DNA of 41,003 nucleotides from Pseudomonadota bacterium (GTDB taxonomy: Bacteria; Pseudomonadota; Alphaproteobacteria; GCA-2731375): positions 1 through 41,003 of the forward strand of contig JAQBYC010000033.1 of the NCBI GenBank assembly GCA_027623205.1. The letters are read 5' to 3'. Under the pieces are notes generated by a model. It saw only the letters and a list, made by a program, of their open reading frames with translations. It was not told the DNA's origin and made no database searches. The position numbers and the translations under genes were made by a program. Positions 35,553-40,525 of this stretch are shown one piece after another; position 1 is the first letter of the stretch; every line of letters begins with the position of its first letter.

Positions 35553-35555
35553 TCT

Positions 35556-38500
35556 TCATACAGCGTTTGCCTCATCTTCCATCGTGCGCGCGGCCAGTTC
35601 CCACCAGCGATGGATGCATGCAGCCGCGACATCGGCGGCCAACTGCGCTGCGGCGGGACTTGCCATCGCCAGCGCGCGCAGGTCGTCTTTATCCAGGACC
35701 GGCTGTGCATCGATATAGCCGTTGTCCGCAAAATAATGCTCCAGGTTTTCCGTTATTTTCCCGCGAAATCCCTTGAGCCGCCGATCCTCCCTCGCGCGCA
35801 GCACGGCGACTAGTTTGCCGGCATCGTTGCCAAGTTCGGACGCGATGCTGGCGACGTCATTCAAATAACGCTCCCCCAAGGCGCCGCTGCTTTCAAGCAC
35901 ATCGCGATCCACCGGCCGGCCGCGGCCCTGTTTCCACAATTCACAAAACACATTGAGCAAATCGGCGCGGGGTCCAATTTGCGCCGCGACCTTGAACTGC
36001 GCGCCCCTATCCAGGGTCGATCGACTGTTCGACACCAGGCGCCACCTGCCGACATTGTCGATATGCCGCTGCAACCAGGTTTGCAGACAATCGAGATCAT
36101 CCCAAAGCAGATGAAACAGGTGCTGGGCCTCGTAGCCGCGCCGGGGGTCCAGGTAAGGCACGCCGATCAAGGCGCCATATTGTTCGGCGGAACAGCCGGC
36201 AGGTGCGGGCACCGGTTTCTCCGCTTCGACGCGCAGCGACGACGGCCCGGGCACGCTCCCGGTCCTGCCGCGTACCGCCGCCAGGTCAATGACCACTGCC
36301 GCCGGGCAATTTTCTTCTTCGAGGGCATTTTGAATGCGGTCGACATCCACCGGATCGGCCGTGAAGTAGAATATCTGACGATCCTGGTCCTGTGCGATCC
36401 GGCCAAGGCCGCGCACAATCGCGTGGTATCGGGATGGATCGCTCTGATCCAGGGCCTCATCCAGGAAAAGCGGCAACTTGATGCTTTGTTCCACTTCTTC
36501 CGCAAATGCCATGCGGGCCGCCAACAGCAGTTGGGCGCGCGTTCCATCGGAAAGCTCGGCCAGACCGCGCCTCTCGCCGGTGGCCGTATCGATGGCGACC
36601 AGGCGGGGTTCGCCGCCGCTTCCGGCTATGGTGATGTCATAGCCAAAATGGGTGAAATTGGCGAAGAACTCCCGCGCCCTGGCAAGTACGCTGGGCATCT
36701 GATTTTTCTGGTGCTCATGCTCGACCGCTTCGACGATGAGGCGCCCTGCTTTCGCCAACAGCGCCTCGTTTCGCCTGTCGTTCAATTGCGCCAGCCACTC
36801 GTTGCGCTCTGCGAGTAGGTTTTGGATTTCCTGACGGCTTTGGGCGAGATTGACTTGGGCTTTGATATCGGCGATTTCGTCGCGTTTGTCAGCCGCGGTT
36901 CTTGCGGTGTTCGATAGACTTTCGAATGTTGCGTCCATCTCACTGTCCTCCAAGTCGACGAGGACGGCTTCACCGGCCGCCTCCAACTCCGCATGATCCG
37001 ATCGAATCTGACTCTCAATTTCGATGCATTCCTGTTTCAGTTTGGAATAGTACGGCAAATTGTTGATCAATTCCGCAAGCCCGTGTACGTTACCGACGTC
37101 CAGTTCAGCCTCGCCGTATATTTCCGCAAGCGCTCCGCGCGCCGTCGTCAGATGTCCGGCAATATCCGCCAACGAGTCTTGGATTTTGACTTCGTCGGAC
37201 GAAGCGGCGCGCAACCTGGCATCGCTTTTCTCCAGTTGCCCCAAGCCCGCCAATGCCATGGCCGCATCGCTGGGACGCCGCCCGCCATGGCTTGCCAAAA
37301 AATCACCAACATCGGAGAGACGTGCATTGTATTGAATTTCACGGACCGCGTTCTGGTCGTCCGCCTTGCGTTCCTTGCCGCGGGCCTGGCGCAATTGATC
37401 GAGGGCCCGCGCCAGATCGACGAGTTCGACATCGGTTCGTCCGGGCTCGAGCCCCAGGCTGCCGCAAAGTTCTTGTCTTTGCAGCTCAAGCCGGCTTGCC
37501 GCCTCGAGAAGGCCGTCCCGCCGATTCTGAAAATCCCGCCGCTCGACATCCCTGTCCCGCGCGCGCCTTTCCGCGGCACCCAGTTCAGCGGCCAGCCCGT
37601 CAAGTTCACGAAGCCGGGCCTCCGCCGAGCCGACCTCCCAGCGCTCTGGCGCCGCGACGGTAAGATTTACGAATTGGTCCTGGGCGGCTTGGCGCGCGGC
37701 AGAGGCGGATTGCCTGCGCCGGCGGATCAGGATGGGCAGCAATATGCCGCCACCAATGCCGCTCAGTAACCCCAGTCTGGGATCCACAAAAAAGGCAAGC
37801 CCCGCACCAACCGCCAGGAGGGCGATTGCGCCGATTAACCATACCCGATCGAACCGGGATGCCTGTCTGGCCGCCTCCGGATCGGGCGCGCGCAACCAGG
37901 CGCGCAGGATCTCGGTGGCGGCACGATAGCCTTCGAGGGTGCGGCGGCTTTCATCGGAAAACGCCAGTTTCGCCAGCAGCCTAAGGCGCTCGTCTATGGC
38001 ATCGGTCTTGGATCGAAGTTCCTCGACCGCCCGCAGGAAGGAAAACAAGTCACCATGGTTCGCGAGATCGAATGTCGTTGCCGGCATATCGATGCCGCCA
38101 ACCGCCGCGAACGCGATACGCAGTTCTGCCTGATAGCCGTCATGCTCCCGACGGGAATTACTGAGTTCCAGTTCAAACCGCGAGAGTTCTTCTGTCCGTG
38201 CGCGCCAGGTCGTCAGTTCAACCGGGTCCAGCGGTTTGACCAGGCCGCTGCCGTGCTGTTCTTTCCTGGCAGCTTCCAGATCGCGCTCGAGGGATCTTTG
38301 CCGGTCTTCGAAGTCCCGGATCTCAATTTGCCCCGCCTCGGCCTGGTCTGACTCCCGGCCGGTCAAATTTTCAAGGCTCGCCGGCAGAGCGGCAATGGCA
38401 TGCTTCAACTCCATCAGCCGGCGTTTTCGGGCCGCAAGTCCCTGTGCCCGCTTCACGAATGCAAGACGGCGCTCTGCCTGCTCCGCGTCACGTAGGAAAG

Positions 38501-39062
38501 CTGATGCTTCCGTCAATCGGTCAGCTCTATGTTGAAGTCCCGATTGCCGGGCTTCAGCGCTTTTTACCGCGCCGGACGACTCATCGAATTTGCGCCGTTC
38601 GCTACGCCCATGGCTTGGGCCCGGGCCATGAAACAGCTCCGCGATCACACGGGGCAAATCGAAACCACCGGTCATCTGTTTCCGGATTTCGATCGCCACG
38701 TCCTGGGCGCCCATGGCGGATGGCTCGATCAAGTCCCTTAACAGCAGAAAAAAGCAACCATGCAGATGCGATGGCGGCAGCGCCGGTGGCGGCATATCCT
38801 CGCCATCGCGGCGCCAGCCGATCCGCGAACCCTCGCGCTCCACCTGCCATGCGGCCCCATCCAGTTCGAATTCGCCGTGCAAAGACACCTGCTGGCCGGG
38901 TCCCCGATCGTGCCAAAACAAGGCCTCAACCGCGCGGCAGATGCTGGATTTGCCGATGGCGTTGGGTCCATGCACCACATGAATTTGGTCGCCCGCCGTC
39001 ACAATTTCGAAAGGCGCATTGATACCGGGCAGCCGTCTGATCTGTAACCGGCGCAGCTTCAT
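35556..39062 (-). CDS. YhaN/SbcC/Rad50-like coiled-coil ATPase with transmembrane hairpin and C-terminal extension
   Basis: A 1168-residue SMC/Rad50-like ATPase. Walker A is GPNAIGKS (32-39), the signature-like ELSDGTRAQ lies around 840, and Walker B is LPLFLDEALDQSD with Asp868-Glu869. Between them are long coiled coils interrupted by two hydrophobic segments (about 405-445, VWLIGAIALLAVGAGLAFF then LLSGIGGGILLPILI), as in B. subtilis YhaN rather than SbcC. After the ATPase there is an extension of about 230 residues (935-1168) that I do not recognise. It contains RRGYEAQHLFHLLWDDL and a helical end. The gene overlaps the upstream nuclease gene by four bases (ATGA), so the two act as a nuclease-ATPase pair in DNA end processing, repair or possibly defence. 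Confidence 0.9.
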   Translation of the reverse strand: MKLRRLQIRRLPGINAPFEIVTAGDQIHVVHGPNAIGKSSICRAVEALFWHDRGPGQQVSLHGEFELDGAAWQVEREGSRIGWRRDGEDMPPPALPPSHLHGCFFLLLRDLIEPSAMGAQDVAIEIRKQMTGGFDLPRVIAELFHGPGPSHGRSERRKFDESSGAVKSAEARQSGLQHRADRLTEASAFLRDAEQAERRLAFVKRAQGLAARKRRLMELKHAIAALPASLENLTGRESDQAEAGQIEIRDFEDRQRSLERDLEAARKEQHGSGLVKPLDPVELTTWRARTEELSRFELELSNSRREHDGYQAELRIAFAAVGGIDMPATTFDLANHGDLFSFLRAVEELRSKTDAIDERLRLLAKLAFSDESRRTLEGYRAATEILRAWLRAPDPEAARQASRFDRVWLIGAIALLAVGAGLAFFVDPRLGLLSGIGGGILLPILIRRRRQSASAARQAAQDQFVNLTVAAPERWEVGSAEARLRELDGLAAELGAAERRARDRDVERRDFQNRRDGLLEAASRLELQRQELCGSLGLEPGRTDVELVDLARALDQLRQARGKERKADDQNAVREIQYNARLSDVGDFLASHGGRRPSDAAMALAGLGQLEKSDARLRAASSDEVKIQDSLADIAGHLTTARGALAEIYGEAELDVGNVHGLAELINNLPYYSKLKQECIEIESQIRSDHAELEAAGEAVLVDLEDSEMDATFESLSNTARTAADKRDEIADIKAQVNLAQSRQEIQNLLAERNEWLAQLNDRRNEALLAKAGRLIVEAVEHEHQKNQMPSVLARAREFFANFTHFGYDITIAGSGGEPRLVAIDTATGERRGLAELSDGTRAQLLLAARMAFAEEVEQSIKLPLFLDEALDQSDPSRYHAIVRGLGRIAQDQDRQIFYFTADPVDVDRIQNALEEENCPAAVVIDLAAVRGRTGSVPGPSSLRVEAEKPVPAPAGCSAEQYGALIGVPYLDPRRGYEAQHLFHLLWDDLDCLQTWLQRHIDNVGRWRLVSNSRSTLDRGAQFKVAAQIGPRADLLNVFCELWKQGRGRPVDRDVLESSGALGERYLNDVASIASELGNDAGKLVAVLRAREDRRLKGFRGKITENLEHYFADNGYIDAQPVLDKDDLRALAMASPAAAQLAADVAAACIHRWWELAARTMEDEANAV

Positions 39063-40426
39063 GACCGGCCGCCGCCGGATTGCTGTTCAAGCATGGCGTA
39101 CAGGGCAGATTTTGCCGCCCGCAGAAGCAGCTCGCGCAACGGCGCATCGTCGAGTGGATCAAGCGCCTCGCGTTGTTCGTTCAGGGGCGACCATCGGTGG
39201 TCACCGGCCAAGTCATTCAGGCCGGCGCGATATTCCTTGAGCAGTATTGGCACACTTTCGTCGTTGCGTTGAAGCGCCAGAATGCGCTGTGCCAATAAAG
39301 CGGCCGGATCACGGCCCGTCGCGATCTCCACAAGATCCAGGGGCAATTCCAGATCGTCCAGCACTTTGTTGATGAAAACGACCGTATCGCCGACAGGCGG
39401 CGCTGGCAGGCTCCATTTGCCGTCGGCTATGGCGCGGCGAATTGCCGCGTACTGCATACTGGCGCCGGTAAGGCGCACCCGTAGGCCCAGCGCACGCGGC
39501 TCGACGCCGGATTTATGAAGTTGCCGTGCGGCTTCTTGCGCCGCCTGCAACAACCGATCGCCGACATCTTCAACATCCTGGATGCCATCGATCGCCAGCG
39601 TAATGTTGTCCCATCGCAGCGGCGCCATCGGAACCTGCGCGATGCCGACAACACTTGGACCGTCAAGCCTTATCAACCACGGGCCATGGGGTCCGGTTTC
39701 GCTTGGGTCAAGGCCAACCAGCGAGCCAAGATAGCCGCTGGGCGGTCGTCCCTTCAGGTTTGTTGCGCTGCTTAACGACGGCTTGTGAATATGCCCCAAA
39801 AGCCAGGCATCCAGGCCGGCCTGGTCCAATTCCCGCTGTTTGATCGGCGCATAATGTCCACCCGAGGCATCCAGATCCGCATGCAATAAACCTATCCGTG
39901 GGATGCCAGGCCGTGTCGCATCCAGTGGGTTTGATAACAGGCTTGCGACGGGACTTTGACGGACAACGCGGTCTCCGAACGACCAACCAATTATTTCAGC
40001 CAACGGTTGCCCGTTGCGTTCGATCACATGCCGCTGCCAGTGCCCACCGGCGCCCAGTAACGTAAAGCCGTCAACCAACCGGGCAATACGCGGCAGCGCC
40101 TCGACATCATGATTCCCGGCAACGGCGATGACATCGATGCCCGCTGCCACCAGCCGTCGAACATTCTTCTCGAATGGCAGGAGCGCTTCAAACCGGGCAT
40201 TCGTACTTTCGACCACGTCTCCCGCAAACAGCACGGCATCGACTTTCCGCTCAACCGCCAAATCGATCGCCGATGCCAGTGCGGCGGCGGGGGTCAGTTC
40301 CTCCGGGTTGAGACCCCAATCATCCAGGTCACTTGGCAGACCTGAACACTGGGTCCCCAAATGGACGTCGCCGATGGCGAGCAGTTCCACGCCAGCAGTC
40401 GTCTCGTTTTGGTTGTCAGCATCCAT
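39059..40426 (-). CDS. SbcD/Mre11/YhaO-like metallophosphoesterase (DNA exonuclease)
   Basis: A 455-residue calcineurin-like phosphoesterase with the full metal-binding set in order: AIGDVHLG, FAGDVVES, VAGNHDVE, LLHADLD and LLGHIHKP. This is the Mre11/SbcD family pattern, which needs two metal ions, usually manganese, to cut DNA. A C-terminal region of about 200 residues probably caps the nuclease and binds the partner ATPase coiled coil. It overlaps the ATPase gene by four bases, so they are translationally coupled. ATG 40426 begins just before the first motif, as expected. The pair resembles YhaO-YhaN of B. subtilis more than enterobacterial SbcDC. Confidence 0.93.
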   Translation of the reverse strand: MDADNQNETTAGVELLAIGDVHLGTQCSGLPSDLDDWGLNPEELTPAAALASAIDLAVERKVDAVLFAGDVVESTNARFEALLPFEKNVRRLVAAGIDVIAVAGNHDVEALPRIARLVDGFTLLGAGGHWQRHVIERNGQPLAEIIGWSFGDRVVRQSPVASLLSNPLDATRPGIPRIGLLHADLDASGGHYAPIKQRELDQAGLDAWLLGHIHKPSLSSATNLKGRPPSGYLGSLVGLDPSETGPHGPWLIRLDGPSVVGIAQVPMAPLRWDNITLAIDGIQDVEDVGDRLLQAAQEAARQLHKSGVEPRALGLRVRLTGASMQYAAIRRAIADGKWSLPAPPVGDTVVFINKVLDDLELPLDLVEIATGRDPAALLAQRILALQRNDESVPILLKEYRAGLNDLAGDHRWSPLNEQREALDPLDDAPLRELLLRAAKSALYAMLEQQSGGGRS

Positions 40427-40525
40427 TGCGGGAATAATTCGTCATCTATACCAACGCATTCCAATTCAAAATTGACTTTCCGGAACATTGCCCACGCCGA
40501 CGGGAATAGCTAATGCCGCCACGGA

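Follow-up and report, generated by a model that had tools for sequence, protein, structure and literature searches.

Mre11-Rad50 complexes cut DNA ends and hairpins in an ATP-gated manner, and relatives of Rad50 and of the SMC proteins have repeatedly been found to be immune machines. Here we analyzed a pair of genes of this general kind, predicted to encode a nuclease and an ATPase, on a 41,003-nucleotide stretch of DNA (contig JAQBYC010000033.1 of assembly GCA_027623205.1, in full length hereafter the window) from an alphaproteobacterium of the GTDB lineage GCA-2731375. The genome of origin (G000) comprises 5.0 Mb in 228 contigs and holds the pair as one copy. Based on its motifs, its relatives in bacteria and on haloarchaeal plasmids, and its distribution, we interpret the pair as an accessory, horizontally moving, membrane-tethered DNA-end nuclease of the Mre11-Rad50 type, a reading to which we give roughly an even chance.

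The closest described system is YhaO/YhaN, which likewise consists of an adjacent Mre11-type nuclease and Rad50-like ATPase. The pair also resembles SbcCD and Mre11-Rad50 in its Rad50 head lobes, its Mre11 metal motifs and its gene order, with the nuclease gene first, but the window subfamily differs from those complexes in having a hydrophobic hairpin instead of the CxxC zinc hook and in having an added C-terminal domain. Mre11/Rad50 fusion proteins of plasmids and viruses are similarly sporadic and partly plasmid-borne, and lateral movement has been proposed for them (PMC3175470, in the portion of the article available, in which the word "transmembrane" does not occur); the window genes, by contrast, are separate and come with a hairpin and an extension. 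Lamassu (LmuB) and Wadjet are SMC-like defense systems whose coiled-coil ATP-binding cassette (ABC) ATPases act against foreign DNA (PMC10586767, from its available portion), and it is this type of ATPase that the window pair shares with them. A Halorubrum SMC-like protein has been named as possibly antiviral (PMC10544981, likewise from a portion of the text), with no established link to the window subfamily, and PMC4158269 makes no mention of Mre11, SbcC, Rad50, SMC or YhaN. Our literature search turned up no functional study of YhaN/YhaO and no paper about the window subfamily. In the searches made, the subfamily is apparently undescribed, and it represents a variant of the known Mre11-Rad50 kind rather than a new kind of system.

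Identification of a Nuclease-ATPase Gene Pair

Both open reading frames (ORFs) of the pair are open and begin with ATG, and the stop of the nuclease gene overlaps the start of the ATPase gene by four bases (Table 1). Wherever an examined locus included a full-length ATPase and the sequence upstream of it, the nuclease gene immediately preceded the ATPase gene. The nuclease matched the Pfam family Metallophos (PF00149) at 2.1e-12, and its five phosphoesterase metal motifs, located between residues 19 and 216, are intact, with their core residues kept across 15 aligned nucleases. It also matched the sbcD and Mre11 models, each under the cut-off; no sbcC match was obtained for the pair, a further difference from SbcCD.

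The ATPase passed AAA_27 (PF13514), a model that we take to cover YhaN, by a marginal 0.7 bits (22.7 bits against a gathering cut-off of 22). With a profile built from eight relatives, a PDB search retrieved archaeal Rad50 heads (9e-9 to 2e-8). Foldseek searches with a low-confidence model of the full-length protein had Rad50 and SMC-type proteins as their top matches, with SbcC heads lower down. Together, the Walker A, signature and Walker B motifs of a predicted Rad50-type head and the presence of an Mre11-type nuclease partner place the pair, as judged from sequence, with the SbcCD/Mre11-Rad50 complexes. An earlier note on this DNA had described a YhaO/YhaN-like nuclease-ATPase pair, and the open ORFs, intact motifs and Pfam matches confirm that this pair is real.

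A Predicted Membrane Hairpin, Proposed to Replace the Zinc Hook

Hydropathy scanning (Kyte-Doolittle mean, 19-residue window) revealed that residues 404-446 of the ATPase, within the coiled coil, form a double hydrophobic stretch, where the earlier note had seen a hairpin; the mean rose to as much as 2.37. A hairpin at the matching position was found in all 16 extension-bearing ATPases and also in an extension-less relative from Bacteroidota. The claim that YhaN has such a hairpin held only in part. Listeria YhaN (907 amino acids) has one in its coil at residues 426-472, and so does a Deinococcus relative, but it was absent by hydropathy from five full-length YhaN of other bacterial genomes and plasmids (L010, L047, L048, L050 and L051). 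The occurrences in Listeria and Deinococcus suggest that in part of the YhaN-like superfamily the coil hairpin is ancient. The zinc hook CxxC was absent in 15 of the 16 extension-bearing ATPases, the exception (L008) having a CxxC at residue 572, away from the hairpin. We infer that the hairpin takes the place of the zinc hook.

An All-Helical Domain Beyond the ATPase Head

In the model, the last strand of the ATPase head ends near residue 926, which is also where YhaN proteins end, placing the extra sequence at about residues 932-1168 and so within a few residues of the 935-1168 previously claimed. The extension, present in 16 full-length ATPases, is formed of a proline-containing linker (residues 932-958) followed by a conserved all-helical domain. 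It is better conserved than the coils, with 44% identity to the Arenicellales protein versus 37–38% for the coils, and 24–31% versus 16–23% to the archaeal proteins.

The fold prediction proposed in the earlier note gave an all-helical, partly confident model, in which most of residues 130-265 (of 270) exceeded a predicted local distance difference test (pLDDT) value of 70, but no convincing match to a solved fold. With this model, a Foldseek search returned nothing under E 2 and comparison with PDB folds (VIA) gave assorted helical chains at a Z of at most 5.0; the viral fold library produced no match. At the sequence level, no Pfam family scored below E 0.02 among 13 members, and the best match of the extension profile to PDB sequences (0.014, to a chain named Spike protein S2',5HB-H2) was not convincing. 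The extension would most likely serve to set substrate or partner choice.

Table 1. Positions in the window of the gene pair and of the features assigned to its products.
Feature	Position	Strand	Evidence
Nuclease gene (Mre11/YhaO-type calcineurin-like phosphoesterase, 455 amino acids)	39059..40426	-	ORF, Pfam PF00149, 15-nuclease alignment
Region covering the five metal-binding nuclease motifs	39779..40372	-	Motif scan and alignment
Nuclease motif GDVHLG	40355-40372	-	
Nuclease motif AGDVVE	40208-40225	-	
Nuclease motif GNHD	40106-40117	-	
Nuclease motif LLHADL	39872-39889	-	
Nuclease motif LGHIHKP	39779-39799	-	
ATPase gene (Rad50/YhaN-type, 1168 amino acids)	35556..39062	-	ORF, Pfam, PDB profile match, fold search
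ATPase head, N-terminal lobe (residues 1-150)	38613..39062	-	Motifs and model
Walker A GPNAIGKS (residue 32)	38946-38969	-	
Hydrophobic hairpin (residues 404-447), predicted two membrane passes, turn at P428	37722..37853	-	Hydropathy and alignments
ATPase head, C-terminal lobe (residues 781-931)	36270..36722	-	Motifs, model, PDB profile
Signature LSDGTR (residue 837)	36537-36554	-	
Walker B PLFLDEAL (residue 864)	36450-36473	-	
C-terminal extension (residues 932-1168, 237 residues)	35559..36269	-	Alignments and models

Relatives and Phylogeny of the Subfamily

At least 16 full-length extension-bearing ATPases were found: those of the window, of G001, G002, G004 and G138, of Arenicellales, Myxococcales and Actinarchaeum, and of eight haloarchaeal plasmids. 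The relatives within the genus were 68% (G001), 73% (G002) and 45% (G004) identical to the window protein. The family is under-sampled here, with at least four loci matching in the scan of genome contigs; among the matches listed were an Arenicellales metagenome-assembled genome (MAG; 43%), a Myxococcales MAG, Actinarchaeum halophilum and the Bacteroidota form without the extension. Among 72,556 plasmid records, nine haloarchaeal plasmids carried the family, eight with a full-length ATPase and one with a C-terminal fragment, and the profile of the extension found the same nine records only, plus a second site in Halorussus that belongs to a frameshifted copy. The viral and phage searches found no relative of the pair. 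Its conservation in bacteria and archaea rules out chance.

Two of the plasmids bore remnants. In that of Natrinema halophilum (L019, 10046-11158), all that is left of the ATPase is its last third, with the extension, in an ORF annotated as a hypothetical protein. In that of Halorussus caseinilyticus (L044, 4843-9681), the pair is present a second time as a decaying duplicate: nuclease and ATPase read as one fused frame that ends prematurely within the ATPase head, and the extension is found in another frame.

Trees were made for the ATPase without its extension and for the nuclease (21 rows each, midpoint-rooted, with L009, L014 and L015 omitted as near-copies). Both trees placed one clade of 14 rows, which contained the window subfamily, apart from seven YhaN/YhaO-type rows with support of 100/100, although with long-branch warnings. 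The subfamily is further set apart from YhaO/YhaN by its 237-residue extension, which was absent from every YhaN aligned and examined, and by its Walker A motif, which is GPN-x-x-GK in the subfamily versus G-x-N-E-A-G-K in YhaN. The Bacteroidota form was nested inside the subfamily clade in the tree of the ATPase (95/93), and its position in the tree of the nuclease was weakly supported. A profile search in six frames identified no hidden extension in this relative. Most simply, the nesting would mean that the ancestor of the subfamily had the extension and that the Bacteroidota form lost it. These sequence, profile and phylogenetic data give good support to the earlier view of an Mre11-Rad50-like machine with an extra domain, whose link to the membrane is predicted from hydropathy.

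Patchy Occurrence and Changing Position of the Pair

Full-length matches to the family were present in 4 of the 11 genomes of the genus (G000, G001, G002 and G004), and two further genomes matched as ordinary YhaN only. An 11.8-kb contig of G004 (L009, G004:C18) matched, from end to end and at 98.6–99.0% identity, a contig of G138 (L035, G138:C1), a genome from another family. This near-identity probably reflects contamination, or else a very recent transfer, and the safe count for the genus is therefore 3 of 11. In the order (15 genomes), there was no full-length match beyond those of the genus, and in the class (289 genomes searched) there was a full match in two, the window's own genome and G138; nine other genomes of the class matched the family profile only to position 918 or less, as an ordinary YhaN would. 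A draw of 398 genomes of the phylum, searched with the extension profile, gave one true match, the window's own genome. A match of 61 residues in a ligase-like protein of G618, presumably a glutamate-cysteine ligase, was judged to be chance.

The earlier note had named, as facts that would speak against its idea, an extension common to the family and a pair universal in the core genome of the lineage. The extension is indeed common in its own subfamily (16 of the 17 ATPases examined) but not in YhaN at large, and the pair is not part of the core genome at the counts just given. The pair is accessory, and its candidacy as a core-genome repair gene was rejected on the genus count and on the four genomes of the genus with no such pair of either type.

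In the window, the pair sits between AMP-ligase and TauD genes (slot 35553-40525). In G010, G002, G009 and G003 (loci L079-L082), these two genes have other cargo between them, in gaps of about 4.5, 5.5, 9.4 and 1.5 kb, respectively. This cargo consists of SDR and EamA genes in G010, PqiA/MlaD in G002, LysR and other ORFs in G009, and an aminotransferase in G003, marking the slot as a variable site with metabolic cargo in other species of the genus. G001 and G002 carry their pairs at other sites, in G001 adjoining a GGDEF-EAL gene and in G002 among pseudouridine-synthase and methionine-synthase-like genes; the pair thus occupies three different positions in three species. In a search for mobile-element ends, no repeat of at least 9 bases was common to both borders, and comparison of four copies found no upstream sequence worth naming in common. 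The G+C content of the two genes (61% and 60%) showed no shift from the 60% of the window to their left.

Surroundings of Bacterial and Archaeal Copies

The survey of defense islands proposed in the earlier note had a divided outcome. The nearest genes scanned in the window (TauD, AMP ligase, luciferase-like and Rieske) are metabolic, and a defense island was rejected for this copy. Membership of Lamassu was likewise rejected, given these neighbors and the weak matches of the LmuB models to the window ATPase, the best of which covered residues 1-49 only (6.8e-4); no LmuA-type effector or Jet subunits were recognized beside the pair. The copies of G000, G001, G002 and G138 are all surrounded by metabolic or signaling genes. 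The Arenicellales copy is preceded by an N6-methylase-like gene and followed by HipA genes.

Some archaeal copies, on the other hand, lie near toxin-antitoxin, CBASS (cyclic oligonucleotide-based anti-phage signaling system) or Tiamat-like genes. The Halosimplex copy has close by a match (2e-105) to TmtA, which we take to be a component of the Tiamat system, the Haloarcula copy is 12 kb from a CBASS cyclase, and PIN-type toxin-antitoxin genes are near the Haladaptatus and Halorussus copies. Four plasmids (those of Halapricum, Halorussus, Natronosalvus and Salinigranum) have genes for a UvrD-type helicase and for PD-(D/E)XK proteins within about 25 kb of the pair; together with the Actinarchaeum copy, which also has a UvrD-type gene nearby, five archaeal loci have such a helicase. 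The archaeal copies are thus mostly plasmid-borne, with DNA-processing and partly defense-like surroundings, although the raw neighbor tallies, taken from partial PLSDB annotation over stretches differing in length, are suggestive only.

One of these loci, on the Natronosalvus amylolyticus plasmid (L088, 5638-24201), is a dense DNA-processing island, in which UvrD, PD-(D/E)XK, further helicase, tyrosyl-DNA phosphodiesterase and RNase H-like genes come before the pair. Ordinary YhaN/YhaO pairs were also seen on two bacterial plasmids, in Sphingobium SYK-6 (L050) next to MmeI and to genes for an ATP-dependent endonuclease and UvrD, and in Phaeobacter (L051) near a DUF4297 anti-phage-associated gene. 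Based on these neighbors, YhaO/YhaN may itself be a plasmid-borne defense element.

Proposed Function and Alternatives

From what is established for Mre11-Rad50, the pair would be expected to cut DNA ends and hairpins under the control of ATP. By analogy with SbcCD, ATP would bring two ATPase chains together at their heads, and this dimer would gate a dimer of the Mre11-like nuclease. We propose that the coiled coils lead to the hydrophobic hairpin, which would replace the zinc hook and sit in the cytoplasmic membrane, and that the helical domain, on a flexible linker from each head, contacts DNA, the nuclease or a partner and in this way influences substrate choice. The probable action would be the trimming or destruction of DNA ends near the membrane, whether of incoming phage or plasmid DNA or of broken replicons. 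It is the combination of patchy spread, plasmid carriage, movement and predicted tether that leads us to favor an accessory device that works on DNA ends close to the membrane.

Several observations weigh against this interpretation. PADLOC and NCBIfam gave no confident family for either protein, and the window pair lies between metabolic genes, with no defense gene recognized next to it or among the ten proteins scanned from the corresponding slot in four relatives. The two halves of the coil are unequal, at about 250 and 330 residues, and the hairpin is thus not necessarily the coil apex, while its membrane insertion is predicted from a simple hydropathy scan. The structural models are weak, both for the full-length ATPase (pLDDT 67.1, predicted template modeling score (pTM) 0.27) and for the four-sequence extension (pLDDT 63.8, pTM 0.40).

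The serious rival is that the pair is an ordinary accessory complex for double-strand-break repair, replacing SbcCD in a lineage without it, with the tether serving only to localize it. What makes it serious is that none of the 11 genomes of the genus had an sbcC or an sbcD over the curated cut-off, although this absence is soft, as the sbcC cut-off was reached in just 1 of 14 control genomes. The extension-bearing pairs (G000, G001, G002 and G004) and YhaO-type nucleases (G005, G006 and G009) never co-occurred in these 11 genomes, a point in favor of this rival, but the pattern was not significant (Fisher p 0.24), and G003, G007, G008 and G010 have neither pair type, which shows that the function is dispensable. 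The UvrD and PD-(D/E)XK genes near the archaeal copies on several plasmids would suit a repair complex; plasmid carriage and shifting position, however, better fit a mobile accessory. On balance we consider this rival possible, if somewhat unlikely.

A defense role is plausible but unproven, and between repair and anti-phage activity, the two functions offered in the earlier note, the evidence leans to neither, with the window copy outside any defense island and archaeal copies partly in defense-like surroundings. In its boldest form, the pair would be an immune system common to bacteria and haloarchaeal plasmids, in which an Mre11-Rad50 complex with a membrane anchor substituted for its zinc hook destroys entering linear DNA at the cytoplasmic membrane and the helical head domain is a sensor or a dock for a partner; we regard this version as doubtful.

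It is improbable that the pair is an archaeal helper of plasmid maintenance or replication, acquired by a few bacteria and with no immune role. Such a helper would account for the replication-type neighbors of some copies: in Haloarcula the plasmid-borne pair comes immediately after a protein with an NrS-1-type polymerase domain, a protein 95% identical to which is encoded close to the Halosimplex copy, and in Haladaptatus a DNA primase adjoins the plasmid-borne pair. However, the neighbors vary between plasmids, and the bacterial and Actinarchaeum copies are not next to recognized replication genes. Just as poorly placed is the idea that what looks like a membrane anchor is instead a buried coiled-coil apex or dimerization hairpin, since, short and rich in G and A as the segments of the hydrophobic stretch are, the second being weaker in the window protein (peak 1.59), its hydrophobicity is kept over 16 proteins despite 20–30% hairpin identity with the archaeal ones, basic residues (RRRR) directly follow it, and Listeria YhaN has the same feature.

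If the preferred reading, that of a membrane-tethered Mre11-Rad50-type nuclease, is correct, this cross-domain subfamily, with a membrane hairpin at the place of the Rad50 zinc hook and a conserved head domain that none of the searched libraries names, would be a concrete and testable case of a DNA-end nuclease stationed at the membrane. The subfamily would also give YhaO/YhaN a comparator.

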